Source: Paramecium tetraurelia (Eukaryota; Ciliophora; Oligohymenophorea; Peniculida; Parameciidae). From it: 64,000 nt of DNA. How positions within the stretch are numbered: position 1 is the stretch's first letter; each line of letters begins with the position of its first letter. Shown here piece after piece: positions 21,063-50,278 of this stretch. Under the pieces are notes generated by a model. That model saw only the letters and a list, made by a program, of their open reading frames with translations. It did no database searches and was not told the DNA's origin. Made by a program: the position numbers and the translations under genes. Where the stretch lies: positions 62,001-126,000 of the forward strand of contig NW_001799636.1 in assembly GCF_000165425.1 (NCBI RefSeq), written 5' to 3'.

Positions 21063-22268
21063 AACTCATGCTTTTGTTATTCTTGCATTTAAGAAATCTA
21101 AGAATGGTGGTGTTTAAACAAGTTATAATGCTTTAGCTAGTACAGCTAATTCTTATTGAACAGAAGCCTATGAATATGAATAGATGATTACCACAATATC
21201 ATCATGTATTTTAAGATTGGCTGAATAGTTATTATTTTGAGTTCTTAATCTATCTTAATAGGCTTTAAGATCAGCTTATCTGGTTGATATCATGGTTTAG
21301 ACATCAGAGATTCTAACAGTTTTATCTTCTCTTTCTTAATAGAAATCAGCATATTATTAATCAAAGACTGTTTTTTCAGCTGTTAATTATTATGTTCTTA
21401 AGGAATGTTAATATTTTTAACTGTCTTCATCTTTATAAGCTTTGGTTAAAGCATCAAATATATTCAATCTTAAACTATTTAAGAAATCACAGATTTCGTT
21501 TAAAACTTATCTATCTTTGAAATCAAATCTTTCAGTTAAATTAGTTAATGCTTAAATGAATGATGAATATTAATGTCCAAAGTTTTCAGTATTAGATTTA
21601 ACTTATTTCAATGATTTATTGATTTTATGTTTTTATTCATCTGTAATTTGAATAAAAGCAGCTCTTACATCACCAGATTTAAATAAATCAGTTAATAAAT
21701 CTAATGCTTCATCTATATTTCTAAGTGCATCTGTAAATTCAGTAGTTGTTAATTGAAATGATTAATTTTATGTATTTCTTGCAGCTTCAGCTTCTTTAAA
21801 TGATTAAGTATTATCTGTTTATTTAGCTTTAAGTCCTAATAATATCTATAAATATAATAATAATAATAATAATAATATACATCATCTAATTCATGAAGTC
21901 TAGGAATCAATTCAGAATTCAATACTTTCTTTTCTCTATTGATATCAAATTCAGCTTAATTAGCTTATGAACTAAGTGATATAACTTTGGCATTATGTTC
22001 ACCTTCAACTGCTTCCCATTATGTATTTTCTAATTTCAATCTCTCTTCAATTTATCTTCCAAATGCTTTAACACCATCTCTTAGTGAATCAATAGCTCCT
22101 GTTACTCTCATTGAAACTTCAGCCAAATCTACCACAAAATGTCCAATCTTTGATTATGTTAATTCCTCTATCTACTATTAAACACCTGTATTCACATATT
22201 AATCCATCACCCCTTAATTACTTATCTCATATTCATATATTACTTTTCAATCCTTGTACATGTGACAA
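21063..22268 (-). repeat. Inverted near-identical repeat, arm A (1,206 bp)
   Basis: Reverse complement of arm B at 41391-42595 (1,205 bp). Compared by eye along its length, the arms differ by one inserted A in the third intron. Identity starts inside the coding region just after the signal peptide and stops two bases after the stop codon. Confidence 0.9.
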
Positions 22269-22305
22269 TGTACAAGATCATGGCCATACTCAATAATCTT
22301 TTCAT
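21066..22305 (-). CDS. Trichocyst matrix protein-like gene, copy A
   Basis: 385 residues, introns 22221-22243 (ends AAG), 21846-21880 (35 nt, containing a TTA/TAT microsatellite) and 21168-21191 (24 nt). A signal peptide (MKRLLSMAMILYIVTC) leads into a long coiled coil: VQQQIEELTQSKIGHFVVDL, REKKVLNSELIPRLHELD, FIQALTNLTERFDFKDRQVL, and the C-terminus LVQTPPFLDFLNARITKA. This plan fits the secreted, processed trichocyst matrix protein family and resembles the 8.4-9.5 kb gene. From 22268 down to 21063 it is essentially identical, in inverted orientation, to copy B at 41.4-42.6 kb; the signal peptide and flanks differ. It lies 70 nt downstream of the RdRP gene on the same strand. Confidence 0.78.
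22253..22276. repeat. 24-bp inverted repeat at the edge of arm A
   Basis: Arms CTTGTACAT and ATGTACAAG (9 bp, perfect) flank six bases. It spans the point where identity with arm B ends. Arm B has only the half that lies inside the shared tract. Confidence 0.8.
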
Positions 22306-22375
22306 TAAATTCGTTTTTGTAATTATTAAGTAAATTTCACAAATTTTATAAACTTCATATATACGATAAATATAT

Positions 22376-25300
22376 TCATATAAGTTCGTCTGAATCATCA
22401 TTAGTTTTTTGAGCGAAACTTAGGATTTCTAATGTAAAGAAAAACCAACTGCATCCTCTGTACCACTATGGAAATTTGTTTTTCAATCGACTGAATAATT
22501 TGTAGATCTCTTCATTTTTATTAATGGTTTTCTCCAATTCTTAATGATAGAATTTCAGGGAAGTGTATTTTGCTATTTAATCTTGATGAGACTTCGGAGA
22601 GTACATCATAAGAAAATGGATAATTGAAATTTCTGCCAATCTTTCTTCTTCATTTGCAGATAGAGTCTTATATATTTCTTATTTCAATTGAACAAGACTA
22701 AGAATAACTCTCTTCTATACATGCTCCACATTAATTTTTTTCTAATGAATAATAGACATCAATAATTACTTTTAACCTGGTTCCTTCTCCTTAAGTGAAG
22801 TTAGTAAAGTACCCTGTGTAAATTTCATATTCATTTGTAAGATCAAACATCTTCCTCAAAGAATCAAAATTGTCAAAGATATGATTTAAACATTTGAGAG
22901 CATTCCTACAAATATTGTCAGTTAGGTATTGCTAATATTCGTTTTAATAATAATCCTAATACTGCTTGGCCTAGTCTCCAACTTAAGCCAATTCATCTTC
23001 CTATTAAAATTTGTAAATAAATCTTGTGTCTATTTCAGGTAAGCCTTCTTGTTGATAGCCATCTAGAACAGATTGAGGTTCTTGATTAATACACTGCAGA
23101 ACTTCTCTGTAGAGCTTACCTAGTATACTTGTTGATTCATAAACCATGGAGTCCTTTTCCATAAAATCGGGCCATCTTTTAGTGACAAGGTTATTAGGAA
23201 TTTCCACTTTATTTCCATGTTTGACATAATCAACAGCAGCTGAATGGAGTTCTGCTAGTCTGATGCATTTTGGATCCTTAGCATAATCTGGAGATCCATC
23301 TGCAATGGCTAGATGGCTATTATCAATTTTGCCAAGGACATCAAAATTGAGATATTCAAGTAGGAATTCAATCATTTTGTTCTCCTAAAAGAAATCTTCT
23401 GCAGATATATAGCCTTGAGCCTGAATTTATTTTGAGACAACAACAGCAGGTTTCTTCTCTTCATCGTAATTCATAGGATATTCGGTGGTCTTTGGTATGA
23501 CTTTGGGATCCCATGAAACAAAATAGATATCCCCATCCAAGTCACCTCCACCACAATCAGCAGGTATAGAATTTCCTTTGCACGGAAACACAATGCAATT
23601 ATAGTATTCAGCAAATGGATTCTTCATGTTATATCTGCTCAAAATTTCATTTTCTGATAAGGCTCTGACCTTTCGAATATCTCCTGGATGCAGACAAGGG
23701 TTTCTTACCACAATGATTTCTCCAGTGATATATTTGTGATTTACATCTAGGGATTATTTCACAATACATACAACCTCTAAACAATATAATTGAATATACC
23801 TCCTTAATCCAGTATGTCGTAATCATCCACTACACCCAATACTCTAGCCGCTTGATCCATAAGAATATTAGACTTGGTTCTCAATTACATAAGACCTCTC
23901 CTTTTCAACCGATCCAATACCCTTTTAATATAGTGATTGTTGTTCTCATTTAGGTTGGCATTGATCATCATCCTTATATTATCAATAATCGATGGGAGTC
24001 CTTGCAACTCTCCATTATAGTCGACTAAAAAGTGATTATATATTGACGAATCTACAGCAGACAGATTTGCTATTTTATGCAAGTATTCTAGCCATATAGA
24101 TGTAATTCATACCTCGCTGAAGTTGCATAAACACCTCCTCTTAAATACCCAGGGTTACCAATAATATGATTATCTATCTATTTAAATATCCACCTCTAAA
24201 TTTGTTGTAATCCAATAAGGAGATCATGGTTTTATAATTCCCGTCATTCATTAAAGTTGGATTAAACTTAATCATACTCTTTCTAAGTTCAATTGTGTTA
24301 TCAGGCAAATCATCATTCAATAGTAATACACCCTTTGCTCCATGATATCTTACTTGAATAGCTGAGATGGTGTGATTATTCATTTCTACCCTGATCATTT
24401 CTATCAAATTTCTAGATATCTTCCCTATACCGTCAGTGTAGAGTTTGCCATTATCACCTACCTTATCAGGAACTTAAGTCTTCACAATTATTTATCTTAA
24501 ATCAATTGACTTACTCGAACTGAAATTCTAACCCAATCTAGCTGCATTCTTAGCCACTTAATCCATATTCAATGTATTAAAGTTTCCTATTGAATCTATG
24601 AAATTTTATCTTGATATCTAGGCTCTATTGTAATTAAAGATCCAGCAAGAACCTCCTCTCAATTGGGAAGCACTCCAAGTTAATAATCTAAACTGTTCCC
24701 CAAGCAAATGTAATCCATTTGACAGCTTTGATTTAAAGTAATATTCTGTAATGTAATGATGTCCATGAATTGTCTCCAAATTCTCATCCTCGAAGTGTAA
24801 TCTTATGAAGTTATCCAATTAATTATAATACTGCCTAATGATTTCACTTGTCTCTTCAGGCAGTTTTAGATTGAATATATATCCTGAGGGTGTCAATGAT
24901 ACTCTCTTTATCATAGCCACTCTCTTTTACTCATTCTAATCAATTGGAATAATCACATCTTCTAGACACCTTTTTAGATCTCTTTTAAAAGTTAAATAGT
25001 TCTTTTTATTTAATTCTGATTGTCTCACTGAAAAATTCAAATCTGTACTATATCTAGAAAACAACTGAAACGTAGATTCTAATATTTTTTCATGATTATC
25101 CCTTTAAAATTACGTTATATGGAGAATTAGCTATTTCAACAGATCCAAATCTGTGATCCTATTCTGTGAAACAACACATAGGATGTTATATTTCTATTCG
25201 AAACTCAATTAGCTCTACTCTATTAAGGCGTACAATTAATCCCATTATGTTTTTCTCTACTCCAACTCAAACAGATTCAGATCTATTGCATCTGAATACA

Positions 25301-26694
25301 TCAGGTTGTATTATGACAATTTCTCAATTACCATTTTATAGGCCATCTCCTCTTTGGATCCCTATTAAAATGTGAATTAAGCAGTGATCAACGTATTGTT
25401 GATTATTATCAATCTTTCAATCTCATTCTTATATTTATTATAATATGCATTCGAAAATATATTATGCACTCTGATCCAATCACTTTTCATATTGAACAAC
25501 TCGAATTTTCTTTTTGTACTCAATGAAATACTGTAATTTGGTGGACACAATAACTTAAAATGTATTTTTTTTCCAAAACTATCAGTCACAGCATGGCAAT
25601 ATTAACAATTTACTAAATCAACTTCAATTTTCAATAGAAACTTATCAAGAATATTGAGGATGAACTCCACTTTCCTTGCCAATTTCGATTCTTCACAATG
25701 GAACATCATATAGGCTTTTACCTTGAATAATTGAGATTGCAAATCTGAAAATTTAAAGTAAGGAGACAAGAACAAGTTGATAGGAGAATTAATTGGTTAA
25801 TCGGGGAGTTTGTCTTTTAAATGTTCTCCTGTAACATACGAAAAGGTTAATTCATTCAATGTGAAAGGTATTTTACCGATTTTTATAGAGTATTCCTAAT
25901 TTTGCATGCGATCATCTATAATTTGAGCATTTTTGAAGTTCATGAATACAGGCTAAGAATTTGGGATTATAGAAAAATGGAATTTCAAGAAATTACACAA
26001 ATACTTCTTCTACATCCTTAAAGTAACAGTGAGTGGACTGTCTAATTTTGCATCTAATGGAGCCTCTTTCAAATCATAAATTTGGATATCCACTTTGGAA
26101 ATCTTGCTTAATGCTTTCTCTAGTTTTTCCACTATTTAATTGATCTCTTGCAATTTATTGATCTTATTTCTTTATTTGCTTGCATCTATTAAAGTAATAT
26201 CTTGTATTTCTTCCTATTCCTCAATCATGCTTTAAAATGAAAATACTCCTTCATCGTCATCATCAACTTCATCATTTTATTATTGCATAAATGACTCACC
26301 TTCTAAATCAAAAATGCAATCTTTTAATAGATTTGTCAAAAACTTATTATTCTTGAAATTGTTGAAATTTGTATCGCTAATGATCTTACTTGAATAATCT
26401 TCATCAGCAAGTTGGGTTCTGAATTCCACTTTCAATACCTATTGCATATTTCACAATTTGTACAATGATTCCCATATTAGCAAATTATTAATTAATTGCT
26501 TATTAAAGAGTCTCCATAATTTTCTAGGCCGTAATTGTACTCAAATTCTGCTTTTGTAAATTGTGCAGGGCAGGTTTGATTATAATGTAATCATCATCTT
26601 AAAATCTTTCCAAAGTATCAATAACCTAATTAAAAAGTCTACTAAATACATGCTGAGATAGTTCACCCTCTTTACTCTAATTCTTTTGTTTCAT
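22376..26694 (-). CDS. RNA-dependent RNA polymerase of the eukaryotic RNAi type
   Basis: About 1,405 residues, introns 26439-26463, 24088-24112, 23777-23799 and 22742-22769. The conserved RdRP core is plain: KRVSLTPSGYIFNL, FRLLTWSASQLRGGSCW, DGIGKISRNL, VRYHGAKGVLLLND, NRQIIILLVTLGI, then VVRNPCLHPGDIRKV and the catalytic GGDLDGDIYFVSWDP near 23,530-23,550. These are the two double-psi beta-barrel polymerase modules of the RDR1/QDE-1/EGO-1 family, which make double-stranded RNA for Dicer. Paramecium has several RDR genes used in dsRNA- and transgene-induced silencing; I cannot say which paralogue this is. The N-terminal ~650 residues are acidic and less conserved. All catalytic aspartates are present, so it looks active. 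Confidence 0.95.
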
Positions 26695-26739
26695 TCTCTT
26701 TTGATTACTTTATTTAATATTTAATATAGATATTTAAAA

Positions 26740-27653
26740 TCAATTAAATTACTAATATGATTATGATAACTTTTCCTTCCCTTCCTCCTACTTCCAATTT
26801 TGTTTTGATTTAGTCAGGCGCCATCGATATGCTGTAATCAACAATACTAAGATGAAGGTAATCAAAATTGGAACAAATCTTTTGTAATCAGAAGCAGGAT
26901 AATTCATGACAAAAGTAGATCCCCCAAGAGGAAGATTAGAACTCTCACAAATCACTGCAAAATAGTTATAATTATCGTTAGGATTAATTTTAATATACAC
27001 AGTAGTGTAATAGTTTAGGAAAGTCATCGTATTATACCGAGATTGCTTAAAATTCTGAAGCTTGTCCTCTATTTCTATCGCATAATAGCCCAATTTAAGT
27101 AGCTCCTTATCTTTTTCATGACCAATATTAACAAGGAAGCTTTCCCCTAAGATAAATGTTCCATTTCTCCTGACAATCATAGGGATTTCAAGAATTAAGT
27201 ACTCATTTTCAAGTCTATATTAGACTGATGAATTCTTATAAGTCATAATTGAAGTCAAGTGCTGATCCTTCTCAGCTGTAATCAGAAATGATGATACACC
27301 ATAAAAGTGTCTTTCCTATGATAATAAAGATATTAAACTGAAAATCTATATTGAGGAAATGTGGCTCCACCTTCTGATCCATAACAAGCATACTTTATCT
27401 ATATTCTAGGATTACTAATCACCAAGTCAGTAAACAAATATGTTCCAGGCAAAGGTTTTAGTTCTATAAAATTTCCATCCTAATCAACTCTGGCAAATTT
27501 GATTGGGCCTTGAAATGAAAAAAACTAAACTTCTAAGTTCCAATTGGATTCAACTGTGAAATATTTGGTTTCATTTAATTCTAAGACTCCATAATTATCA
27601 ATTAGACCTGTCATAACATTTGTTATGAATAAAAGGATAAATTTATTAATCAT
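26740..27653 (-). CDS. Single-pass type I membrane protein, unknown
   Basis: 296 residues with one intron at 27316-27338. A signal peptide (MINKFILLFITNVMTG) is followed by about 235 lumenal or extracellular residues that look like beta-strand modules (LPGTYLFTDLVISNPRI, YACYGSEGGATFPQY, AVICESSNLPLGGSTF), one membrane span (FVPILITFILVLLITAY) and a short basic tail. No family is recognised. It is transcribed toward the RdRP gene, whose start codon lies 45 nt beyond its stop, so the two are tandem and the RdRP promoter probably overlaps this gene's 3' end. It is divergent from the large surface-protein gene on the right, with 247 bp between starts. Confidence 0.75.
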
Positions 27654-27900
27654 AATAATGGATTGATTTCAATCTTTACCAAAATATTACATTTTCTAAA
27701 TTAATGTGACAACATGTAATAGTATTCCATATTTATTCATTTGTAGAGAGTCTGTATTAACTGTATATACATAACATTATTTTGTGTGTATCATCACCAA
27801 CTCTATTGCCATTCTTATGGGACTTTATTCGATATATTATATAATATAATTTCAATATATTATATCACCTTTTTAATTTATTATATTATTTATATAAAAA

Positions 27901-30900
27901 ATGCTTCTGAATTGCGTAATTCTTTGGACTTTATTGCAATTCGTTCAAACTTGTATTGTAAAGTTGTCTTATTATCATAGTTGCGAAACCAATTGTTCTA
28001 AAACTCATACAATGTTTAAAATTAACCAAATATCATCCCTTTGGGATTACTATTTAATGGATCATCCTTGCAATATAGCATTTAGAACAATAACAATTCA
28101 CAAGGATACAAAATATTTCAATCTGTTGATCTATTGCAAACTTATAATACTGCTTTGAATGCTATTTAAGTTATCGCGAGTTCCCAATTTCCAATTATTA
28201 CGAATGCTCAGGTGTAAATATAGATTGTTTTCCTCACATAAACATAATCAAATTATTAGTTGCTTAAGACTATTTGGTCGGCCAGTTCAATTGATACTAA
28301 TTACTAGGTCCTTGCCACTCTAACAAATTAATAGAATTGCAATCGAGTGGCTCATATGACTCAAAATGGCATCGTCATTCTATGCTAGAATTAATTAGTA
28401 TTCTATAATATGACGTCAAATGCAATAATATATTCATAGATAACATGGCCTACATTTACAATTAGCTATTATTGGCTTAAAGCAATTAATGATGGTATGA
28501 TCAATAACTAATCTTAAGATACCGTCTATGTTTCCTTTTCTGATGGAAAATCAAGTTTCACTTCCACTAGTTATGTCAACACTAATGGACAGTTCGTTAA
28601 GGTGGATGCAATCAATTATGATGGTATAGTTACTGGGTTTGATGCCTATCCTGATAGTACCTATTTTATTCTCAGAAACTCCATCCTCTCCTACATAAAT
28701 AAGAATGCTCAAATAAACTGCAACATAACATTTAATTCCCAATCCTTCATGAGTATCTTTTCAGGCCTCAATAAATTGGGTCAAGCACACTTCTATATAG
28801 CAGTTATTAATTAGACCAGCCTAACCCAATTTATTTTCAATACAGATGACTCTTTATTTAGTTAACCTTTCCATCAATCCTTCCCTGCTATAGATTTAAA
28901 TCAACAACCGCAACTCTTTAATGATTAATATTATTTCGTCATCTAATATGGATTCAAATATGAGGTTTTCAATGGATACGAGAACCAATAGGTAGGTATT
29001 TCTCCTCTATTCTACCAATCAATTTCCTCAAACTCATTGATTTTGTACATTAGTTACTCGGATTAAATCTTAATTCAGACTGTGACTTAGGCAACCCTGA
29101 ATCAAGTTAACCAGCCAATTTTGGTATTTGAGAAACCCATATTAAATATTTAACAGAATTTTGTCTATACAATTTTCGCAGTTGATACTCTTACAGGAAT
29201 AGATACCTGCTCTTAGAACTTAATGCAAAAAAAAATATCTGCTGAGTTTAATCAAGTTCAATAATATTAAAACTGCTCTTAGATTAATGTCAATTTGTAT
29301 AATCCTCAAATCAAACAAATAGATGTTGGATATTGTGCTTTGGGACCTAATATCACATACTAAGCAGGAACCTTTGTGAACATAGAGGGATTAGGGATAG
29401 ATTCATAGATTGGACAATTTGTAATTGAGGTTGATGAATTAGAATTGTTTTTCTAAGAGTTGGCAATCTATTAAATAAATGAGATTTATACATTTTAGAG
29501 TAACCCCAGAGAGTTTACATATTTCACATATTTGATTAATCCATTAAATAGTAAGCAATACATATAATTAATTTAATTCAATGATTTTCAAGTAGAGTAT
29601 CAAATTTGTGATAAGTGGATATGTCAAAATACTACTGTCATCAATTTGGATTATCAGGTGACAATGTCATAAATAGGAGTTGACATTAGTAAAAAGGAAG
29701 ACTTTATATTATTAATAACCAATGCTGCTACATCATATTAATTGTGCATCTATCAATTTTAGAGCTTACAACAAATTGATTTATAAGTGTTGGATGTGGC
29801 AGAAGATTTGAACATTGATCCAACCTTTTCAATTGTGTAAATAATGCTTTCAGGTCCTTATTTATATTTAATCATTGACAACCCTAATTAAATGGTAATT
29901 TATGATATTTACAATTTCAATTTGGTTGAATTTGATGCTCCAAATTTATAGCCCAGGAAGTTGGAATAAAATTATGCCTCGTATGGAGATAATATCTTCT
30001 TAGACAACACAGTTGATCTTGTCATTTTCGAAATGGTCAATGGTTAATTTACTATTGGGGCTCAAATAGAATATCCTACCAATGCAGATAGTGTAGCCAT
30101 AGGATTACTAGGAGATGGTGTATATATAGCACTCTCAAGTGATACTGGAGACTCCTATTTGTACTATTATTCAAGACAATTATTATTCCAAAGTATAATT
30201 AATCCACAGTACGTAATTCAAATTCCTTTATACAATGCTTAATTTATATAACCAATGATAAGTTCATTTAGCTCGCAATTCTTTTATATTTAAATGGTTA
30301 TGCCTGACACTAGCATTTAACTTTGTATTTTCAAGTCAGATTACTATTTGCTTTACCTTACATATTATTTTAAGGAGTAATTTAATTCAATTAGTGTGAT
30401 TTAAGTTGATACTTTGTAAAATTATGATTTAATCGGTTTTTAATCAGCCTAAGAATTTACGATTCTCTAAAACTATTGGTAGGTTTCAGTCATTTTAAAC
30501 TCGGAATTCTTAGTACCTGGTATCCAATTACTGAATGATACACAAATATTGCTGATTTGCTCAAACAATTACTTAAGTGATTATGCCTTTTCATTTCCAG
30601 TATCTGTCAATAATCTATATTACGACATCTTAAGAACAAATTAATATTACCCTACAGTTAATTAAACAGAATAAAGCTTCTCCATCATGGTTGATCCTTT
30701 GCAGTACTTTTAAGGGTCGATTATTAACTACAATGTGAAATCAAGGGGAAAAAACAATGCCTTTATTAGTTAATACATCATAGATTACTACTTTGATTTT
30801 GAACCAACGATAAATAGTGCAGCTTATTCTCAATCAAGAGAATTAATATTTTCTGTGAACAATCAATAAGCAATTCAATACGAAATCGGGAATAATTAAA

Positions 30901-32123
30901 CTGTGCTAATGTATGAATTCAACAACAATCAATACACAACTTGTCCCCTCATAATTGTAGAATATTATCAATAAACACCTATCTCATTCTGTACTAATAA
31001 TACAGATACTTATGTTTATCTGAGTGGATCAATTATTTATTCGATCAATAGCCTTACAGGGACTCCAATGCCTAATTTGTTTAATGGTTATTATTTGAAT
31101 TACATATTGATCATGGGATTCTAATAGAATTCATTGCCTAATTGTTTGATAATTAATACTTATCATTTAACTTGGGTTGATTCATTTTAAATGATGTTAA
31201 TGGAAAGGACAGAGAATTGTGTATATCAACTCTTCACATTCACTATGATCAACATCAATACTAACCCTTCAAATATGAAATAACTTCAATGTGCAGGCTG
31301 GATAGGAATCACAGATGATATCTCCACCTTCCCATTCCATTATAATTGTTTCAATTTAACAGAACCAAAAATGTAAGTGAATGTTTACACTCCTAAATAA
31401 CTTTTTATTTAATCCATACTCTCCAATTCAATCCAACTAATTTAAATTACTTAAATTGGATTGCCTGTTATCTATTCCAATTATTCTGAAATTACACTCT
31501 TATTTGGAAGTCAAAACAATGCCTATTCATTTTTGGTTCAAATATTCGAAAACAGTGTGGAGATTGGAGATAAACTCTTGATCTTCTAATAATTCAGCAA
31601 TCAAAAGGCTGTTCAAACGGTCAGCGGATATAATAGCCAAGGAAATTTGACTGTGATCTCAATGTTCTTGTAAAAAGTAGGGTCTCAAATATTCCAAACT
31701 CTATGCATATATTAGCCATTCAACTTTAATTTTACTGGTAAACTCAAAGTAATTGAATTCCTATTTTGCAGAACTCTCCACTACTCATTGCCATACACTC
31801 AAAAGTATTCACCCTTCTTGTATTACTTGATTAACAATCTGGTGTTGACCAATTAGCATTTGCTTATTATTTCATAACAACTGGAAATCACAGTATAAGC
31901 GTTTCCTCATACTGAAAGTATTGTGTATCTAAATGCTTCAAATTTTGATTCATTCCAAAATCTAACCATCAATATTATCTAAACTGACTTAGATCGTACA
32001 TATGTTGGATGGATAGTGTTTTCCTTGTTAGTTGTACTCTCCATAGCCATCATTTGGGGCTATCAATATATCAAGAAATTGCGTAACATCAATACTGATG
32101 TTGAAAATTATATTGAATTATGA
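27901..32123 (+). CDS. Large (~1,399 aa) type I surface protein, unknown family
   Basis: One 23-nt intron (27958-27980) joins a short signal-peptide exon (MLLNCVILWTLLQFVQTC) to a single frame open for 4.1 kb to TGA 32121-32123. The ectodomain of ~1,340 residues is rich in Q, N, Y and hydrophobic beta-like strands, with few cysteines. Recurrent patterns such as YLIIDNPNQMVIYDIYN and SVAIGLLGDGVYIALSS suggest propeller-type blades, but no family signature was found. It ends with one span (WIVFSLLVVLSIAIIWGY) and a short charged tail. Such long one-pass proteins are common in ciliates and of unknown role. The start was chosen because only this exon supplies an ATG and signal peptide. Confidence 0.8.
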
Positions 32124-32152
32124 GATATGTAATAATATTGTAATGAATAATT

Positions 32153-32728
32153 TCAATTGCCAAAACCTGAGGCTTCCTTAAAATTCCTCATAACTTAATT
32201 ATCTGAATTGTTATCCCATTGAGCCAACTCAATACGTTCCTACATCTTATTTAAGGTCTCCTTGAGCATGTCTGCAAATTCTAATGACATATCATCAATC
32301 TTCTTTCTTAGTTCTGCAATATCCTGATCTTTCTTCTTCAGTTTCTCCTCATAATTGGCTCGATAATCTGTTATCTGCTATTCTTTGGTTTCTAGGTATA
32401 CTTTATAATATTTTTTACTGATAACCTCATCCTTCTCCTTGACAGTAGAATTCAACTCATTGATGTCCTTAAGTAATTCGTCTTGCATTTGCTTATATTG
32501 TCTATTCATATCTGTACTGATATTGAATAACTTGTCCTTCTCTCCTTTGAAGTCCTTCTCCAAACTCAAATACTTTTATTGTAACTGCATCTCCTATGTT
32601 TTGGAACGATCAGCTCTCATTTGTTCTTCCACTATTCTCATCTACAATCTTTTAGCTTCGAAATCGAGCATCGTGATTTTGGCTGCATTGTTTTATGCTC
32701 CATCGTCTTTCTATTTTTTAGGAGGCAT
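32153..32728 (-). CDS. Coiled-coil protein, probably DRC12/CCDC153-like
   Basis: 191 residues, no intron. The N-terminus MPPKKQKDDGA is followed by unbroken coiled coil (MLDFEAKRLQMRIVEEQMRAD, YLSLEKDFKGEKDKLFNIS, ELRKKIDDMSLEFADMLKET, LNKMQERIELAQWD). The size and the closing pattern, with MLKETLNKM..RIE, resemble CCDC153, which is subunit 12 of the ciliary nexin-dynein regulatory complex. Coiled coils are easily confused with one another, so the family call is tentative while the coding call is strong. It is convergent with the large surface-protein gene: only 29 nt separate the two stops. Confidence 0.75.
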
Positions 32729-32843
32729 TGTTATTTATATAAACTTATAACTTTAATAAAATTATAATTGACATAACAAAATAAACAAAAGGATGTAAAT
32801 TTTATTTAACACAAATAAATATATATATATTGACTGTTATATC

Positions 32844-33903
32844 TCAATGCTTGTGGTGTTTCCTAATAAATTAATATATATTTTAATTTTACTTGTTATG
32901 CTTTCTTGACTTGCTCCTCTCTTTCTCTTTTTCCTTGTCCTTCTTCTTCTTGCTACTCTTTTTCTTACTCTTCTCCCTCGAATTCTCTCTACTCCTCGAT
33001 CTCTCCTTTTCTTTCTCCTTCTCTTTCTTGTCTTTCTACTTCTCTCTCTCCTTTTCCTTCTCCTTCTCCTACTCCTTATCTTTTGCAATATCCTCCTTGA
33101 ATTCTTACTTCCGAGCTTCCTCTTCCAATATCTTCTCCAATACCAATCTTCGCACCTACAACTTTTGCAATTCCACTCTAATTGTTGAAAATCCTTAGTG
33201 AATTCTACCATCCAGATGAGTTCTAAGTAATAATACTAAGATCTATACTTGACTTTGTTCTCTGTCTCGTAAAGAGATTATCTAGCCCCACAAACCTCAC
33301 AAATTTTATATGTTTTAAATGGATTGTTTGTGCCCTCATATGCAAGTAATACATCTTCTCGAGCCTTCTTTAAATTGTCTGCCTCCATGATCAATCTTTC
33401 TGACTCATCTATTTTTCCTTATTCTCCCATCTTCTCACTCTAATCTGTCAATAGATTAATCTATCTTTCCATATTGTCAAGTCTATCTTGAATTTCCTTG
33501 GGTCTATCTGCCACTTATAGTTTACTTGATTATTCAACTTACTCTTCATGCTTGGTCAATATCTTGTCTACTTCCTTCAACTTGTCTTGGATGTAAGCTA
33601 TTATAATTATTAGGTTCATACTAAACCTATCGCTTCTTCTATGTATTTCTTCTCTCTCTATTGCTTCTTTAGACTCCTGTCACTGTTGAATTCATTTATG
33701 AAGAATTGATCATGTCTCTTATTGCATTCTCCCTCATGATCATACTTTGTATGCTTCCAAAGATCATTGAAACACTTCGAAACTAGTATATTCTTGCACA
33801 CATCATCATTCCAATAATGAGCATCATTTTTCCTCTTACTCGCAATCACATTTCTCTCCTTTCCGAAAAGTTCATCAAGGAGTGCTCGAGAATCTTCGCA
33901 CAT
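32844..33903 (-). CDS. LUC7L: LUC7-like U1 snRNP protein
   Basis: 334 residues, introns 33598-33626 and 33223-33248. The N-terminal zinc-finger region has ALLDELFGKERN, VCKNILVSKCFNDLW, and CNKRHDQFF, matching the CCCH finger of LUC7. Coiled coil follows, then the second finger CEVCGARQSL ... HLDGRIHQGFSTIR (C2H2). The C-terminus is a long KE/RS-rich tail (ENSREKSKKKSSKKKKD). LUC7 proteins sit in U1 snRNP and help choose 5' splice sites. The tail's repetitive coding sequence creates long false open frames on the other strand. One gene separates it from the PRP40-type gene, another U1-associated factor. Confidence 0.95.
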
Positions 33904-33990
33904 TAATTTGTTAATTTAAATATTTTATTCATTTATACTCTACCCTTCAAAAATGAATATAAATATAGATATACAATAATCTCTTATATC

Positions 33991-36092
33991 TCAAATTAAC
34001 TTTATAGTTGACTCACCAATCGCTAGTATCTTGTCTTAAATAATGCAAAAGTCATAAACTTTAAAAAGTGGAATTTATTTGCATTGATTACTCACTAAAT
34101 CCCACTCATATAAGTTTTATTTCTAGTTAATCACACATTTCTTATCTAAAAATTGACACTTGTTGATCATTTCTCCCTTCGTTTTGCAAATTTAAGCCAA
34201 TTTCAGATCCCTTACTATCCATTCCGATGGCCCATTTAAAAATAAATACTGTGAAGAGAATCTTATCTACTTGATGATGCTCGGTCTGCAATCAGCTATT
34301 AATTTAAATATACAAATATACCTTTCTGAACCTACTAAGATGTCACTACATCCCAAACTTCAATTTGATTTTTGTTATTTAGAACATATAAAAGATCTGG
34401 AGTAGGCATTCCAAATACGTCAGCATTGAATTACTATTAAAATTGCACCTTCAATAACCGCTTAATGTTTTCATCGTAGACGCTTATGCCAGTGCTTTGA
34501 TTCTGATCATCTACCCTTTTAGGTGCGAAGAGATTGAACTATTGGGAAGGAGGATTATGAAAATCATAACTAAATACAGAACGATTCTGATATAATTGAC
34601 AACTCTTATATTTCTCAACAAGCATCTCTGATTCGCTATATTCATTGGTTATGAAGTTCCATTTAACGAGGAGAGGATAAACACTCTTGGAGATCTTGAG
34701 AATACATTATATTGTGGAATCATTGAGGAACATGACAGTCTTGATCTCAAGATTGTCAATTTCCTTTCTTCTCTAGAATTCTAGTTTGTTGTCGAAGGGA
34801 TAAATTTCTATTTCTATGTGGAAGATCACTTCTTCATCATAAAGCAACCCACACTTTTGTACAACAGCCAGAAATTGCTGATTGGGACTTGAACAGCAAT
34901 GTAAGACTTACTTTACTCTAGCTTTGTAAAAGAATTGCTTTTCTAAATTAGCATTTAACAAAATAAAATCCTTTTTAACTTTGTGTTCAGCAATTATGAT
35001 TTCTTAATTCATTGCGATTAGAGAATATACACCTGGACAAAACTTGACTTCAAATGTCTTCGTTTTTGCTCCCGACTAGATATTCCAACTAGTAACTACT
35101 GCATTCTTACTGATTGAAAATAATTGGTTGTTGGTGTAGCATAAATCATGATGAATGTCATCTTTTGATGAATTCAATATGATTTAAACTACAGCCTATT
35201 TATTAGTTTAGAATTTAGTAATAACAATCTGGCCATTTGAAGCAAATGCAACTGAATCATAAGTTATGGGTGTCCAACATGTCACTGCACAACCATAAGT
35301 AGTTTAGAGTTCCTCCAATTAATCATTCACAAAATCAATTATGAAGACTTCGCCTACCTTTTTCTACTTACCAAATACCAATCCATTTTAAAGCATAAGT
35401 AAATCATCACAATCATCAAGTTTCCCTGACAACACTTTTTATAATTCAATCACATTTTTAGTTTTTGGTTCAAAATTGTTATACTTGGGTTCCATTTGAT
35501 TGGGTTTTCCCAAATTGGATGTTCTCCATAACATGAGTTCCCCATCTTAGACACCTATGATTCTAGGTATGTATATGACACTACCTTGGATTAGGATGAT
35601 CTGATACACAAAATGCTGTAAGTGCTTATTCAATCAGAAATGTTTTCTTATTGGTTTCTGGCTCAATCATCATTAAAATGTCTCCGAAAATTAAATAGAT
35701 CTTATCGTGAACTGCCACCATTTAATAAGGCATATTCTCTATTAATCCTTTGTATTCTTTTTTCAATTTCATCTCCTTGTCCCAAATTGCCAATGAGTCT
35801 GCTCCAGATGTATCGCACAAATAGCCATTAAATGCAATGAGGTTGTTCATTGAAGGTTCCAAATAATCTTCGCTAATTGGAATCTAATTGCTCAAAATAT
35901 CCTTACTTAATCGAATTGTTAATCTTAAACTGTGACCTTTAATTCCAAATTCAATGATTCCAATGAAGTCTATTAAAACTATTGACTCTATTTTTTATTC
36001 ACATGAAACTTCTTCTTCTGTGGTATGTCAATGCCAGGAGGTGGGCCAATTTGATTATCATCATCATCACCTAATCCAGGAGGCGGGTTCAT
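33991..36092 (-). CDS. WD/beta-propeller-like protein, unknown
   Basis: 676 residues, introns 35884-35906, 35563-35584 and 34296-34321. The first ~50 residues are proline- and lysine-rich (MNPPPGLGDDDDNQIGPPPG). The rest alternates short strands with WD-like ends: SLAIWDKEMKL, LMLWRTSNLG, AVVTSWNIQSG, IEVWDVVTSQ, LYEWDLVSNQ. This suggests one or two beta-propellers, but the repeats are too divergent for a family name. No membrane segment is present, so it is probably a cytosolic or nuclear scaffold. It sits between LUC7 and the PRP40-type gene on the same strand; the gap to the LUC7 start is 87 nt and to the PRP40 stop 70 nt. Confidence 0.75.
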
Positions 36093-36162
36093 TCAATTAT
36101 TTAATTTATTCTTTAATTACAGAATAGGTACTTGTTATTTATATCTTATTATTAAATAATAT

Positions 36163-38095
36163 TCATTATTTGTGATGTTTCTTGCTCTTATAGTGACTTT
36201 TATGATGTTTCTTTCCTTTGCTCTTAGATTTCTCTTAATCATTAAAATCGTAATTGGGCTAAATTTCTCCTGGTTCAGGTTCATGTTCTTATTTTACATT
36301 TTTAGTTTTCTCTGGTTCTACTTAGCTGAGATCTTGTCGAACAGAGCCTTCCTCTTTTGATTTCTTTTCCTTCTTCTCCTTTTTCTCCTTCTTCTTTTTC
36401 TTCTTTCTCTCACTCTAATCTTTTTCAGAAGTTTATTATTATTATTATATAGGTTCTTCTTGAATTTACGTAGATTATTATTATTATTATTATTACTATT
36501 AGATCTATTGCTATTATTATTAATTAACTATAGGTACGATAGGTATTTGCTAGGATTAGGTTTGTTATTATTATGATTACAGTTACTATAGATTGGCAAC
36601 AAATGATTCATATTGCGCCTTCTTTTGCTCTTCAACCAATCCAGCAAGTTTTGGGTTCTCCTGAATCTTTTAATTGATGATTGGTAACATCTCCTCATAA
36701 GATTTGTAATCAGGCAATGATTTTAATAATTTAATGTATCTTTTACACATCTTCTTATATCGCTTGGACTGAATGTTGGACGACTGCTTGATGTTTTCTT
36801 AGAAGTAACGATAATAATATTTTTTCTCGTGTGATGGCATTTTGGTCCAAATCTGATTATCAAAAAAGTAAGCATCCACTTCCTCAAAGCTAACATTGGT
36901 TAACACCTTGACTCCCTTTTATTAGAGATGCATCTTTAACTCCGATTTATACAACTAGTGGTTCTGCTTTAAATGTGATATGAAATCTAAAAACAACTCA
37001 TGAGGCTGTGAGCCTGGCTATCCGAGCATGCAAATAAATCTATCATCTTATTATATTGTCTATACAAATTAACCCCATTTAGTCTTGTGTGTCAACAAGC
37101 CTTCGGCCAGGTGTTCCTAGAGCAATTCCCTGAAGTTGATCCTATTCTACCTGTATTTAGAAATGATTGACTATCTCCATTGCTCATAGAGAGGATTGAT
37201 GACCTAAATATGGAGAGAATGTACCTCTTCAAAGACTCCGAGAGCATCGATTGGCAACATCTGTTACAAGAGTCTATCCTGACTGAATAACTTTAAGCAC
37301 TCCTCCCAAGTGGAACTATGACTTAAGACTCCTATTTCTATATGTCTTTGTAACCTCTTTCTGAAATCCTCAGTGGTAGTTTTGCGATTCTCCTTCATCT
37401 GCTCTTACTCTTGCTTATATAACTTATCTAAATAATCCTGGAATAAATTTTCCCTTTCCTTTTCATCAGGGATTGCTTTCCATCTTGCATCTGTAACAAG
37501 ATAACTTTATACTTTCCATAACTTTATGTCCGAAGAGAGGATCTTATGTTCCTCCAACATCTTCATAAAATCCTCCTTCGCCATACTAAACTTGGTCTTG
37601 TTCTCCTCCTTCTCTTGCTTTTTCATCTCTTCCAAATATTGATTATAGATCTTCTTTTTGTGACTAATACTCACTATACATTTCCATCTTGAATCGCTTT
37701 ACAATTGCTTAACGACTGAATCCCACTTTACACTAGATGTAATCTTATTATCCTTCAGTAATTGAGTGAATTAGTCAATCGGATTTGGCGGGATGATGTC
37801 CTCTTCCTCTCCTGATCTGCACTAATATTATATTTCCATACGTATATTGCTCCTCTTCTGGCTTCTGCCATTTACTCTCTCTCGTTATGCGATTGTACCA
37901 ATATGGTTTACCATCTTCGGTCAAGTATTATTGCCATTCCTCCTCAACTTCTGATTCCTCATCCTGTAAACATTCTGGCTTGTCCCACTGAGATTGTCCT
38001 GTCTTCACATTGTAGTAATACGTCTGTCCATTCGCAGATGAGTGTTTTGACCAATAACCTCTTTCAATGTCTACTTCCTTCTCTATGCTATCCAT
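36163..38095 (-). CDS. PRP40/TCERG1-type splicing factor with WW and FF domains
   Basis: 635 residues with one intron at 37817-37841 (ends CAG). Two WW domains open the protein (GYWSKHSSANGQTYYYNVKT-GQSQWDKP; WQQYLTEDGKPYWYNRIT-ESKWQKP). FF-type repeats follow, for example PIDQFTQLLKDNKI..SVKWDSV..SDSRWK and KEDFMKMLEEHKIL..LWK..TDARWKAI. Then comes a polyglutamine tract written with TAA/TAG codons, and a lysine/histidine-rich tail (KGKKHHKSHYKSKKHHK). PRP40 bridges U1 snRNP to the branch-point complex; TCERG1/CA150 is a related transcription-splicing factor. Two tandem N-terminal WW domains followed directly by FF repeats favour PRP40. Confidence 0.92.
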
Positions 38096-38175
38096 TAAAT
38101 TATTTTAATAATTATTTATTACCTGCACCAAATATATGAACTGATATATTTATAAATTCAAAATCAAATAATAAA

Positions 38176-39341
38176 ATGGAAAATTCAAAATCAGAAATTC
38201 TTCATTGGATCAATGCCCTTCTTAAAGTAATACATTCTAAATACAATAGACAAACTTTACCAAAATAGAACAACTGGGCAATGGAGTGGCATACTGCAAA
38301 CTATTAAATATGATTGATCCAACTTGTTTGAATCCTTCTAAAATAGTACTAAAAACTAAAACACAAATTGATCACATCAGCAATCTCAAGCTCTTCCAAA
38401 ATGCTATGTAGAAACTTCACATGAAGAAGCAATTTGATATTGACAAAGTTAGCAAATGTTACTTCCATGAAAATTACGACCTAGCCTTGTTTTTAAAGAA
38501 ATAACACACCTTGAGATTTGCTGGCATAAATAAAGAAAACACATCCATCAACAATTCCATTATCTATGAAAATCACCCGAATATTCTTGAAGAGCAACAA
38601 ACTACTAATAATGCCTTGCTCACCTAAATAGCATCTATTATGCAGACTACAGATTTAGCTGAATCCAAGGTGTTATAAACAATCAATTTATTGAAATCAC
38701 ATAACATTATTAATTAAAGCACTCACTTCATCGAAAATAATACAATGTATGATAGTACCAACAATATATTTAACATGTTTAACAACTCTAATCAAAATGT
38801 ATTTAATACAGACAATCTATTCAAAACAGATTCAAAAAATAAACAATCTCTGGAATAGTAAAACAATTTACTTTGTGAAACTCCAGAAATGCTTCTTGAT
38901 CCTCATCAGAACAATGAGGATATATTTGAACACTAATCTTCATCCAAATTGATAATGAAAATCTAATCATAATCAAAACTTTAATTGGAAATTAAGAAGG
39001 AAACCCCAAATTTTTGTGAATCTCCATTTATTCAACAACCACAACAAAATAGTCTTGCTGAATTCATCAAATCAGAAAGCAAATAGTAATAACAATACAT
39101 GCAATAATACTCAATGCAAAAGTAATTGCAAATGTAAAATCAAATAAATAATAACCCTCCACAAGAATATCAATCCCCATTTAGAGATTAGGTCATTTAA
39201 TAGTAGTTGTCTTAATAGAAGGAAATATTCAATTAGACTACAAATCCTTAAGTGTTTTCCTCGTACAAAAAGGAAACCCCTTAAAATAACAATTCTATGT
39301 TCTATTCCTGTAAGGATTAAGGAGCAATAATTGAAGAATGA
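38176..39341 (+). CDS. EB1/MAPRE family microtubule plus-end protein
   Basis: 380 residues, intron 38227-38249. The calponin-homology domain of EB1 is clear: ILHWINALLKTNFTKIEQL, GNGVAYCKLLNMIDPTCLN, HISNLKLFQNAMQKLHMKK, YDLALFLKKQ. EB1 binds growing microtubule ends through this domain. The remaining ~250 residues are rich in N, Q and S without an obvious EB-homology dimerisation coil, and end SCKDQGAIIEE; the acidic E-E ending recalls, but does not match, the EEY/F tail. A diverged EB1 relative is therefore the safest name. Divergent from the PRP40-type gene with 80 bp between starts. The next plus-strand ATG lies only 16 nt beyond its stop. Confidence 0.87.
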
Positions 39342-39357
39342 TAATAATATTAATTAT

Positions 39358-39861
39358 ATGATTTTATTATTATTATTTTTTTTAGTTAAATCAGAAGTTG
39401 AAACACAAGGCAATATCGTGTTGTATAGGAAGGATGCCTAGTATACCTACATAGATTTAGACACTTGCCCAATCTTATATTATAAGTAGCCTACATATTC
39501 TTCAGCAACTTTATAATTAACATGGCCACAATTCTGTTAATCAATATAGGTAGCTGATTTCCCTGAACCAACAACCTTGGATGTTATTTAATAAAGTTCA
39601 GAAGCTCAGAAACTATCTACTGATACAAGATATGAGAAATATTACTGCACTGCATTAAAAGAATTATCAGATATAGGTACAGATGCCTGTTGTTGCAAAC
39701 CTGAAAACATAGATACAGAGCTTTCTACTTAGGGATTGACGGCCGTCATCGTAGTTCCAATAGTATTTTTTATTGGCGGATTGATTATGGCAAAATTGAA
39801 TTCTCATAATAGTCGAACAGCATGGATTCATGAATTTGAATAAGCATTATCGAAGGCTTGA
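39358..39861 (+). CDS. Small type I membrane protein, unknown
   Basis: 167 residues, no intron. A leucine-rich signal peptide (MILLLLFFLVKS) is followed by ~120 residues with five or six cysteines (CPILYY, WPQFCQSIQ, YYCTALKEL, DACCCKPE), one membrane span (LTAVIVVPIVFFIGGLIMA) and a short tail. The cysteines suggest a disulphide-bonded lumenal domain. No family is recognised. The start codon is only 16 nt after the EB1 stop, so its promoter must lie inside the EB1 gene, or the annotated start is too far upstream. Confidence 0.65.
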
Positions 39862-39934
39862 GTTGATAACATTAAAATAAATTAAAATATATATGATATA
39901 GTCATAAAAATAATAATACCCTTATTGGTCTAAA

Positions 39935-41134
39935 ATGCTGGAGAATTAATTGTAGGAGAAACAACAAAATGATTTTCAATTCAAATAGGATCAAGAATTA
40001 AGAAAGCAGAGGTATAAATAAGAATTATAAACTGATATGATGCTTCATCAATAAAAGAAATAAGTGTAACAAAGTTAAAATCAACAACTGGAATCTATAA
40101 TGCTGGAAACTTTAAGATAGAGAGAATCCAAGAAATTAAAGGAAATGGAGGAAAGGAAGATCAAGTAAATTCAGACCAGTTTGGATAACCTTAATAATCT
40201 GATGATTAAAAAGAAAATGAATTTGGAGAGATCATATAACAACTAATAATTAGATAAGGAATTCATTAGACAGGAATAGATGAGGGAAATGAAAACTATA
40301 GAGGAAAAAAAATAAAAAAAAGAAGAAGAAGCAAAATTATTAAAAGTTACATACGATGATATGATCAACAATAAAAGATAATTGAGATAGGAGCTATAAC
40401 AAAATGCTCCAACATCCATTCCAACATTAATTAATGAATAAAGTAAAGCTAAAATAGATACAAAGAAATATCAAGTAGAATTATAAAAGCAGCTTGAATA
40501 AAAATAAAAATAATTGGAAGAGTTGAGATTGAAGAAGATTGAAGAAAGGTAAAAAGTGGAATAGAAGATAGAATTCGAAAAGCAAAAGATGATGGAGAAT
40601 AAACTAAAAAATTATCAAGCATATAAATAATATGAGACTGAGAATTATGAATTGTTATTAGATAGAAAATAATAGTAATAGAGTAATCCATCAGAATTGA
40701 AACTACTCCAAAATCCATCTTAAAGCAAATTACCAAGAATTTATTAAGATAACTATTATCCAATAGAACGTAAAAAACAATTAGAATTACTCGATAGAGA
40801 TCTTCTAAAGTATTAATTATTACAATAGCAGCAAAATATTATAAATCATAACCATACAATTCTCTCCCCTGTCTAAGATAAAGTATAAGATGGGACTAAA
40901 TCTGAGAGTTCAAAACAGACTAAATAATCCAAATAATCTAAATAAGCTTCAAATACTTTAAATTAATTAGTTCCATAACAATAATAGCAGCAACAAGTCT
41001 AGGTCTCCACTCCATCTCAAAAATCCAGAAATTCGAAACTAAACCCACAAAACCCGATTGTTCATTTGAATTAAAGATATGTTCCAAAAAAAAGAAGTTT
41101 TAATATTGTAACAGGAATTATCACTCCTAATTGA
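39935..41134 (+). CDS. Glutamine-rich coiled-coil protein
   Basis: 399 residues, intronless. The protein is nearly all charged helix (ESIMLETLRQRESKKLKEME, QEQMREMKTIEEKKQKKEEE, EELRLKKIEERQKVEQKIEF) and then a low-complexity Q/S/K region; many Q are TAA/TAG codons. Trichohyalin-like coils of this type are frequent in basal-body and ciliary proteins, but no family can be named. It lies between the small membrane-protein gene and copy B of the trichocyst-like pair, all on the plus strand. Confidence 0.7.
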
Positions 41135-41350
41135 TTAACCTCATTTATTGACTCAAATGTAATTAAATATTTATAATAATATCTATGTATCATCTTCATT
41201 TTAGAGATGTTAAACACATGACTCTGCCTAGTTATTGCTAGAAGCATGAAATTATGAAACAATTATTTCAATATTTTATTGTATCTTTTTAATCATTTCA
41301 ATTAATAAAAGAATTTAAGCAAGCATTATAATTTATAAAAAACGAATTCA

Positions 41351-42592
41351 ATGGCATATTAAAAAATTGTTTTAATAGCTCTGATTTGTGTTGTCACATG
41401 TACAAGGATTGAAAAGTAATATATGAATATGAGATAAGTAATTAAGGGGTGATGGATTAATATGTGAATACAGGTGTTTAATAGTAGATAGAGGAATTAA
41501 CATAATCAAAGATTGGACATTTTGTGGTAGATTTGGCTGAAGTTTCAATGAGAGTAACAGGAGCTATTGATTCACTAAGAGATGGTGTTAAAGCATTTGG
41601 AAGATAAATTGAAGAGAGATTGAAATTAGAAAATACATAATGGGAAGCAGTTGAAGGTGAACATAATGCCAAAGTTATATCACTTAGTTCATAAGCTAAT
41701 TAAGCTGAATTTGATATCAATAGAGAAAAGAAAGTATTGAATTCTGAATTGATTCCTAGACTTCATGAATTAGATGATGTATATTATTATTATTATTATT
41801 ATTATATTTATAGATATTATTAGGACTTAAAGCTAAATAAACAGATAATACTTAATCATTTAAAGAAGCTGAAGCTGCAAGAAATACATAAAATTAATCA
41901 TTTCAATTAACAACTACTGAATTTACAGATGCACTTAGAAATATAGATGAAGCATTAGATTTATTAACTGATTTATTTAAATCTGGTGATGTAAGAGCTG
42001 CTTTTATTCAAATTACAGATGAATAAAAACATAAAATCAATAAATCATTGAAATAAGTTAAATCTAATACTGAAAACTTTGGACATTAATATTCATCATT
42101 CATTTAAGCATTAACTAATTTAACTGAAAGATTTGATTTCAAAGATAGATAAGTTTTAAACGAAATCTGTGATTTCTTAAATAGTTTAAGATTGAATATA
42201 TTTGATGCTTTAACCAAAGCTTATAAAGATGAAGACAGTTAAAAATATTAACATTCCTTAAGAACATAATAATTAACAGCTGAAAAAACAGTCTTTGATT
42301 AATAATATGCTGATTTCTATTAAGAAAGAGAAGATAAAACTGTTAGAATCTCTGATGTCTAAACCATGATATCAACCAGATAAGCTGATCTTAAAGCCTA
42401 TTAAGATAGATTAAGAACTCAAAATAATAACTATTCAGCCAATCTTAAAATACATGATGATATTGTGGTAATCATCTATCATATTCATAGGCTTCTGTTC
42501 AATAAGAATTAGCTGTACTAGCTAAAGCATTATAACTTGTTTAAACACCACCATTCTTAGATTTCTTAAATGCAAGAATAACAAAAGCATGA
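41351..42592 (+). CDS. Trichocyst matrix protein-like gene, copy B
   Basis: 386 residues, introns 41416-41438 (ends AAG), 41779-41813 (35 nt with TTA/TAT repeats) and 42468-42490 (23 nt). Signal peptide MAYQKIVLIALICVVTC, then the same coiled coil and C-terminus (LVQTPPFLDFLNARITKA) as copy A. From 41391 to 42595 the sequence matches copy A in reverse orientation; the only difference I found is one extra base in copy A's third intron, which splicing removes. The signal peptides and 5' and 3' flanks are unrelated. Probable role: structural component of the trichocyst core. It is tail-to-tail with MSH6, stops 65 nt apart. Confidence 0.8.
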
Positions 42593-42595
42593 GTT
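41391..42595 (+). repeat. Inverted near-identical repeat, arm B (1,205 bp)
   Basis: Partner of arm A. About 19 kb of unrelated genes lie between the arms. Exons and introns, including the 35-nt microsatellite intron, are equally conserved, which argues for a recent copy or conversion event instead of selection on protein sequence. Confidence 0.9.
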
Positions 42596-42657: not shown

Positions 42658-45600
42658 TCATACTAGCTCTGTTAAGATTTGATTAAATTTTTGAAGAATC
42701 TCTCTATTCTTTTTAATATTGGATTCTTCTTTTGTGATCCTCGTTTCCATTTATTTGGCTGTTTAAATGACCTCTTATGGGATACCAGCTTTCAATGCTA
42801 CATTGGTAGAAAAACTCCTTTCAGCAACCCCTTCAACTAATTTGTATCTAAAGATAAGTTAATCCTTATTCTAATAATATAGCATAACACACTGGTTGAT
42901 ATTCTTAAACAATTCAAATTCATCCAACAAGATGTGATAATGTGTAGCAAATATAGTCAAGGGTTTGATTTTTTCTTATAAATATCTTAGAACTGCAGAA
43001 GCCAGAGCTATACCATCATATGTTGAGGTTCCTCTTCCTAATTCGTCTATTATAACAAAACTTTTAGAGGTGGAATGATCTAGTATTGTCTTGGTTTCCT
43101 CGAGCTCTATGAAAAAGGTGGATTTTCCCTCTAATAATCTATCTGTAGCTCCAAGTCTACAGAAGATCCTATCAAAAGGAGTTAAAGAAAATGAATTTGC
43201 TGGCACTGCACATCCAATTTATGCTAAAATGATAGAAACTCCAATTAATCTTAACAAAGTAGACTTGCCACTCATGTTTGGACCTGTTAATAAGAGAGTA
43301 TCAATAGAATCACTAAATTTGATTGTGTTTGGCACCCATTCTATGCTTGTATCTTTTAGTAAACATGGATGATATGCTTCAACCAGTTTAAATTCTCTCT
43401 CATCAGAATCTTTATTTATTTTTGGAAAACAGGAAGCCATCTTCTACTCCTTTGATACTATTGCTAAAGAAATTCTAAAGGATATATAAATAAACTTACA
43501 GACAATCAGCTTCAGAGAGAAATGATATTAATTAAAGGAATTCTTTCCTATAAGAATAGAATTTTGTAAAATATTCATTTATAAAGGGAAGTAACTTTTA
43601 GGAGAGTTCGTGTTCTGCTAATTTTAATTAATGTAGTTATTCTTCTATAAATGGAGTCTAAAACCTTTCATATTCTGGCGTTTTTGAAGTGATTATTAAT
43701 TCTTTATGTTTCTATTTATTCGACAATTAATTTTCAGGTATTTACATTTGATATCGTATTTTTGAATGGTAGTAAATGATATCAGGACATTTTAATTTAC
43801 TTTTCCACTTTTCAAGTTCATCTTAAAGTGAATCTGTGATGTCTGTTATTTTAGTCAAAGTCTCATCATATTCTGAACTGGCTCCTTAAATTGGTTTTGG
43901 TTCATTATCCTCCATATTCAGACATTTTTCTAATTCATTGAGTGATTATTTTAAAATTTAAGTATTCTATTTATAATTAAAGATGTCCTACAATTTTTAA
44001 GACTTAAAATTATTGTTATCTTGATCAAATATCTTAAATGCCTCTGCAGCTTATCTAACATTACTCAATACATTCTTAATTTCCTTCAATTTAGTTTTGC
44101 CACAAGATGGTACAGCTTTTAATTTGTGAGAATGAATTGTATTGAAACATCTAATGATTGCACGCTCTAGATCTGGTAATGAACTAATCTTCTTCTGGAA
44201 TTCATAACATTAAGGTAGAAAATTACAAAGTTCTTTAACACATTGTTATCTTTCAATAATCGAATTATAGTTTTATAATGGACTCTAAACCCATTTAGTG
44301 AGGAGTCTCTTACCAGGATAAGTAGAGCATCGATCCAAATAACTAAATAAACTGTCTGAATTGGTCACTTTTGTTTTAAGATTTACATCAAAGATTTCTA
44401 AACTTTCTAATGTTTATGCATCTAAATAAAGGTGAGCGCTACGGATCATATTTGAATCTAGGAAATTGAACTTCCCTCTTCTGTAAACTGAATTACTAAT
44501 TAGAAGTTATCTCAGATAACTTAACAGGATATAGAAAGATTGGAGAACGTAATAATAAGAATAAAAGTTAGATTCATTATCTTCCTAGTTTGATGACTTT
44601 TTTTCATGATTAAACTGAGTCTCCAATTCTATTAAGAGTGTAGGATAATCCTAACTCAATTAATAATTCTCAGCACATTATTCTTCTCGAATCTCTTATT
44701 TTGATATTTAATTGATATTCATTTTTTATTCAGATTGATTTTTTTGAACAGGTAAAGCTAGGTCATCTAATTATTTTGATTTATGATTAGTTTGTTTGTT
44801 GTGTAATTCCAAATATTCAATTTTTAATTGATGAAATATAAACTAACAATCACTGAAGGGTAATTAGGAAATGACAACAGTAGGGTGACAAATATTTCTA
44901 TATTATATGTTGATTATATGTATACTTGATAATCCGTTCAATCTCATATGGAATACTACATAAGATGACTTCGACAGGTTTAGTATTATAAATAACAGAT
45001 TTTAGATGATTGGATTATGCATCATCATAGAATTAATCAAAAGAAAATTGGTTAGTAGTGCAATCAACAATTGAGACTCCGTATATGTAAGAGTGGCCTT
45101 TCGAATTAGCTGGTGCATTTGAAAACACCAATACTAATAGATTCCTTTATTCATATGAATCTGTGTCTCCTAACTCTTGTAGAGTGCCTCTAGTTATCAT
45201 TTAAGTGATTTCTCTTCTAATTATTTCTCCATCCTCTTTGTTAGTCTTATCTGAAAACTCCTATTGATCAATCATCATGATTTTGTATCCTTTTTCTAAC
45301 AAAGCCCTCTAATATATTGGCAATTGATTATCATAGATAGTTAAACAAGGTGTATCTTTTCCCCAGAATCCTAGATAACGATTGAACATTTAAGCAATGA
45401 CAATAGCATCATTATAAAGCACAGCTATCCAACTACCACATCTAAAGAATGCAATGAATTCAAAATTATTCTTCTTTACATTCCAATATTACTTGAATAT
45501 TGGTGACAATTTTTCATATTCATAATTTGAAATGTATAGAGTCGAAGGATTGTAATTTGGTTCATTCGGTCTTCTCCCTTTAGAATCTCGAATATTTTCA

Positions 45601-45965: not shown

Positions 45966-46025
45966 TTTGATTTGCTACGAAAATATTTCTTTAATTTAAT
46001 TTTAAATTTTTTGTCTCCATCCTTA

Positions 46026-50062: not shown

Positions 50063-50278
50063 ATGTCAAGAGAAAGAGGATTATCAGATTAATTTAATAA
50101 TGATAGAGATAAGATAAGATAATTAGAATCTAACTTGACAGCCTAATATGAAAAGTTATTTGGTCTTGACAACAATTAAGAAATCAACCAATAATAAGAA
50201 AAACCTAATTAGGATTAACCACTTGATTTTTTGAATCAACTTATTGAATCATAACCTAAAAGGAAGTAGAGTTTCTGA
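50063..50278 (+). CDS. Possible 71-residue polar protein
   Basis: MSRERGLSDQFNNDRDKI begins a short Q/N/E-rich peptide with a helical stretch (RQLESNLTAQYEKLFGLD) ending SQPKRKQSF before TGA. It is GC-richer than the flanking spacer, which favours coding. No intron, no family. It could be a chance frame, given that TGA alone stops translation. Confidence 0.4.

Follow-up and report, generated by a model that had tools for sequence, protein, structure and literature searches.

How did two genes lying 19 kb apart in divergent orientation come to carry the same coding unit, introns included, behind two different signal peptides? The genes, which we call A and B, are located in a window of 64 kb (the whole stretch of DNA that was analysed) with a GC content of 29.8%. 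Long frames emerge in the ORF listing of this window once TAA and TAG are decoded as glutamine. Introns are short, with a median of 25.5 nt over 38 candidates from a rough frame-forced scan, some of them overlapping or false; the median intron of P. tetraurelia is given as 25 nt (PMC5485702; here and below, literature statements come from parts of the cited papers). Judged by these sequence features, the low GC, the glutamine-coding TAA and TAG and the short introns fit a piece of a Paramecium macronuclear (somatic) chromosome. GC content falls to 21-24% in the 1-kb bins of 49001-51000, 55001-56000 and 58001-60000.

Gene models and neighbouring genes

The two genes were modelled as follows:

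21066..22305, minus strand: gene A, predicted secretory helix-rich protein of 385 aa (spliced model, table 6)
22243 (23 nt), 21880 (35 nt) and 21191 (24 nt), minus strand: introns of gene A (spliced model, table 6; intron 1 ambiguous)
21168..21191, minus strand: intron 3 of A, 24 nt, a multiple of three, with no in-frame TGA and the frame open through it
41351..42592, plus strand: gene B, mature sequence the same as that of A, another signal peptide, 386 aa (spliced model, table 6)
41416 (23 nt), 41779 (35 nt) and 42468 (23 nt), plus strand: introns of gene B (spliced model, table 6; intron 1 ambiguous)
42468..42490, plus strand: intron 3 of B, 23 nt, whose retention would shift the frame

The proteins of 385 and 386 aa differ in the leader only. 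For intron 1, seven GT-AG choices of 15-60 nt leave the frame open in both genes; we modelled it at 23 nt because this length is typical, although the acceptor is then AAG. An alternative intron of 47 nt, with GTA and TAG at its ends, makes both proteins eight residues shorter, and neither choice affects the leader or the extent of the identity. Intron 2 is a 35-nt (ATT)n stretch identical between A and B, a type of sequence that is expected to change length fast. A candidate third copy at 36456-36519, which resembles intron 2, was rejected as (ATT)n low complexity. Both copies keep their introns, by which retroposition from a spliced RNA was also rejected, and a hairpin RNA formed by the pair was set aside by inference, as the genes diverge and form separate units.

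Pfam was searched with B in its spliced form and with 17 ORFs out of the 171 listed for the window. On the plus strand, an open frame of 2496 codons at 11802-19292 had no match at E 0.01. A MutS-family mismatch-repair gene (42658-46028, minus strand; Pfam MutS I to V across three ORFs) points towards copy B in convergent orientation, and its frame closes about 65 nt past the B stop. Upstream of copy A, RNA-dependent RNA polymerase (RdRP) ORFs are found within 22376-26450 on the minus strand, with PF05183 at 22653-23822 and 23985-26447. Another open frame, with no Pfam match above the cut-off, extends to 22376, which is 70 nt before the A ATG, and the promoter of A may therefore be very short.

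In the encoded protein leucine, glutamine and alanine are abundant and proline and cysteine scarce, and the mean heptad moment is 0.74, compared to 0.53 ± 0.06 in 200 shuffles. Both leaders are hydrophobic, with hydropathy peaks over nine residues near the N-terminus of 2.4 in A and 3.8 in B. For the spliced B protein no Pfam family scored above the cut-off, and the sole match below it, Mistic, was taken as chance; a sequence search of the PDB gave one match at chance level (E 0.45). Searching genome and viral contig collections for relatives gave 13 and 2 pattern matches, respectively, none of them confirmed, with a single-protein query that reaches close relatives only. AlphaFold2 modelling of exon 3 alone, run on the single sequence, produced helices and loops only, at a quality too poor for a fold search (pLDDT 46, pTM 0.24). 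An internal two-domain repeat was rejected, as 91 of 500 shuffles were equally good. The composition and periodicity fit trichocyst matrix proteins (TMPs), whose mature part is largely helical and carries heptad repeats; A and B share with the TMPs of Paramecium a hydrophobic leader followed by a glutamine- and leucine-rich mature part with heptad periodicity. By this likeness of architecture, assignment of the pair to the TMPs is plausible. The Paramecium TMP multigene family counts 176 annotated genes (PMC3091696).

Limits of the identity

The elements that define the relation between the two copies are:

21063..22268, minus strand: identity tract, copy A, 1206 nt
41391..42595, plus strand: identity tract, copy B, 1205 nt
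22269..22305, minus strand: start of the A signal peptide, outside the tract (translation; hydropathy)
41351..41390, plus strand: start of the B signal peptide, outside the tract (translation; hydropathy)
22306..22319, minus strand: block before the ATG of A, common to B (12 of 14 bases agree without a gap, 11 of them in a row)
41337..41350, plus strand: block before the ATG of B, common to A (with the same agreement)
22269..41390, no strand: spacer between the arms, with the 5′ ends of both genes and ORFs with RdRP, LUC7, FF and CH domains

Across the tract A and B show no substitution and a single 1-base indel, an extra T in A, located in the third intron. It separates two exact match blocks, one of 1089 nt (22268-21180 and 41391-42479) and one of 117 nt (21179-21063 and 42479-42595). 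The first is the longest inverted repeat in the window, at 100% identity and with 19,122 nt between its arms, and the second-ranking inverted repeat (135 nt, 94%) is its continuation beyond the indel; the next pair has arms of 49 nt and is an (ATT)n stretch. Thus, the first-pass annotation was right in describing two copies that are inverted about 19 kb apart and identical, introns included, apart from one intron base. Both limits that it gave had to be moved. Identity starts not inside the mature protein but within the last codons of the signal peptide (codon 13 of A, codon 14 of B), and it ends three bases (GTT) past the TGA in both copies, rather than two bases past the stop.

The extra T brings intron 3 of A to 24 nt with no in-frame stop, so that the frame is kept when the intron is retained. 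Introns of this kind, with a length of 3n and no stop, are reported to be counter-selected in four Paramecium species (PMC5485702), and the extra T may have arisen recently and be slightly deleterious, or else be a sequencing error.

Aligning the arms together with their flanks, a check suggested with the original annotation, revealed that identity stops at both edges and that similarity is sharply lower on both sides, the bounded pattern looked for in a gene-conversion tract. Continuation of the identity into both flanks, as in a simple segmental duplication, was not seen in this alignment. Residual similarity of the flanks was scored as the fraction of 500 order-1 Markov resamplings that reached the observed local alignment score. 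Upstream, this fraction was 0.50 for 300 nt, 0.156 for 60 nt and 0.024 for 30 nt; downstream it was 0.58 for 60 nt and 0.068 for 300 nt. The signal-peptide DNA of the two genes, with a fraction of 0.066, is not convincingly alike. The claim that signal peptides and promoters are unrelated was too strong: immediately upstream of the ATGs, 12 of 14 bases agree in register. Elsewhere the flanks do not stand out.

As a control for this block, AAAAACGAATT, we compared 679 ATG contexts located outside the arms, all with a GC content of no more than 25% over the 40 bases upstream. At least 12 of 14 matching bases before the ATG were reached by 26 of 230,181 pairs, and a run of at least 11 bases by eight of 230,181, the A/B pair being included in both counts. 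The block pattern is not in excess in the window, with 10 occurrences at up to three mismatches where 7.25 are expected by chance; exact occurrences are confined to A and B, from which the pattern itself was made. Since the median 5′ UTR of P. tetraurelia is 19 nt (PMC5485702), the block probably lies in the 5′ UTR of both genes. It could be left over from older homology or be a regulatory element common to the family.

Origin of the identity

We suggest that the pair is best explained by recent ectopic (non-allelic) gene conversion between older paralogues, a reading of the sequence to which we assign a probability of about two in three. A and B would be older members of one secretory-protein family in divergent orientation, and in a recent event one copy would have served as the repair template by which the other was overwritten. 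Conversion would have covered what the two genes still had in common, beginning at the end of the signal peptide and reaching slightly beyond the stop codon, and would have halted where their sequences had already diverged. Three features lead us to favour conversion, namely the extent of the tract, the introns that both copies share and the similar bases before the ATGs: conversion would explain where the tract ends, why leaders and 3′ ends are separate and why the introns were copied. Similarity resumes outside the diverged leader, in that 14-base block (12 of 14), which hints at two older paralogues, one of them recently overwritten, over a bare duplication. Moreover, as each copy has its own ATG and a hydrophobic leader in frame, neither looks like a randomly dropped fragment. 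The earlier proposal of conversion between older paralogues fares well on tract limits, introns and 5′ block and less well on the leader DNA and 3′ flanks, which have no clear residual homology; the low GC at third codon positions (GC3) is another counter-point. Both the prior paralogy and the overwriting of one gene by the other are inferred. Conversion between Paramecium paralogues is described as common (PMC10195154), which favours this reading; counting against it, the species with the most conversion in that study has Ks shifts in 9 of 104 paralogons.

The silent positions give clues to the age of the event. The 238 synonymous sites (119 of them fourfold) and about 75 intron bases, together about 313 near-silent positions, show no substitution between A and B, so that introns and silent sites are as alike as coding sites, as looked for in a conversion tract. 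These unchanged positions bound the divergence below about 0.96% at 95%, and at the Paramecium rate of 1.94-2.44 × 10^-11 substitutions per site per division (PMC11334263) the event would be under about 2.0-2.5 × 10^8 divisions old. That the (ATT)n intron has the same length in both genes suggests an event much younger than this bound. GC3 of the B coding sequence (41351-42592) is 12.4%, far below the 23-42% measured for 11 further ORFs from the window, two of which overlap. Gene conversion raises GC (PMC5485702), and the low value speaks against a long-continued GC-biased conversion, not against one recent event.

The absence of clear homology in the leader DNA and 3′ flanks would equally be expected had the mature coding unit alone been duplicated recently and inserted, through break repair or template switching, at a locus that already had a leader or gained one later. 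Such a bare duplication accounts for the identity of A and B just as well and needs no older paralogue. However, the unit would have had to land in frame, 13-14 codons behind a ready ATG and a hydrophobic leader, and the similar 14-base block before both ATGs would then be a coincidence. Recent single-gene duplications are also rare in P. aurelia genomes, with a median of 28 per genome (PMC10195154), and we regard this origin as unlikely.

We likewise regard as unlikely an assembly artefact, in which one locus would really contain nothing, or a paralogue that has diverged, and reads of the other copy would have filled its middle. The assemblies of PMC10195154 were built from 2 × 150 nt reads, which are shorter than the 1.2-kb arms, and chimeric scaffolds and redundant small scaffolds have been reported for other Paramecium assemblies (PMC8354472, PMC3464196). 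On the other hand, wrong filling should tend to join sequences within the alike part and not exactly at both points of divergence, the one-base difference suggests that each copy was read separately, and both copies are in frame with their own leaders. That old duplicates were held alike by strong sequence selection with no recent exchange, as might be imagined for secretory structural genes, which can be highly expressed and constrained, is practically refuted by the identical introns, since selection at the protein level does not keep introns, the (ATT)n stretch included, and all 119 fourfold sites unchanged.

Inversion geometry and known systems

The 5′ ends of both genes face the spacer, and it follows from the map that a crossover between the arms, a mechanistically sound event, would invert the 19 kb between them and leave both proteins unchanged. 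Because the genes have no more than the mature part in common, neither protein would be altered by such an inversion, and each promoter and leader would be re-paired with the other 3′ flank. We find it very doubtful that the arms act as a silent flip switch for the segment with the RdRP, LUC7-like, FF and CH genes, with both orientations present side by side in different strains or in the copies of a somatic chromosome, and with the arms kept identical by recurrent exchange. Inversion isomers would escape notice where reads are not longer than an arm, and whenever an assembly was built from reads that fall short of the 1.2-kb arms, the orientation of its spacer cannot be taken as certain. The pair resembles inversion isomers at inverted repeats, as they are generally understood, in its long identical inverted arms; unlike them, it is known from a single assembly in one orientation.

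Preferring conversion, we regard the pair as a clean example of two genes of a single ciliate chromosome that have probably undergone exchange, over a stretch whose limits match those of the protein-coding part. Among the papers searched, which take in few of the subscription papers on TMP genes, none brings together trichocysts, Paramecium and gene conversion, and the one that links trichocysts with concerted evolution is a review on Oxyrrhis. The conversion cases described in the relevant parts of PMC10195154, PMC5485702 and PMC11334263 are pairs from whole-genome duplication in P. aurelia species, and not an inverted pair on the same scaffold. As in those pairs, found in the same kind of organism, A and B are far more alike than expected; in such pairs the promoter can lie inside or outside the tract. 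A and B differ from them in lying inverted on one scaffold, 19 kb apart, and in a GC content that is low and not raised.
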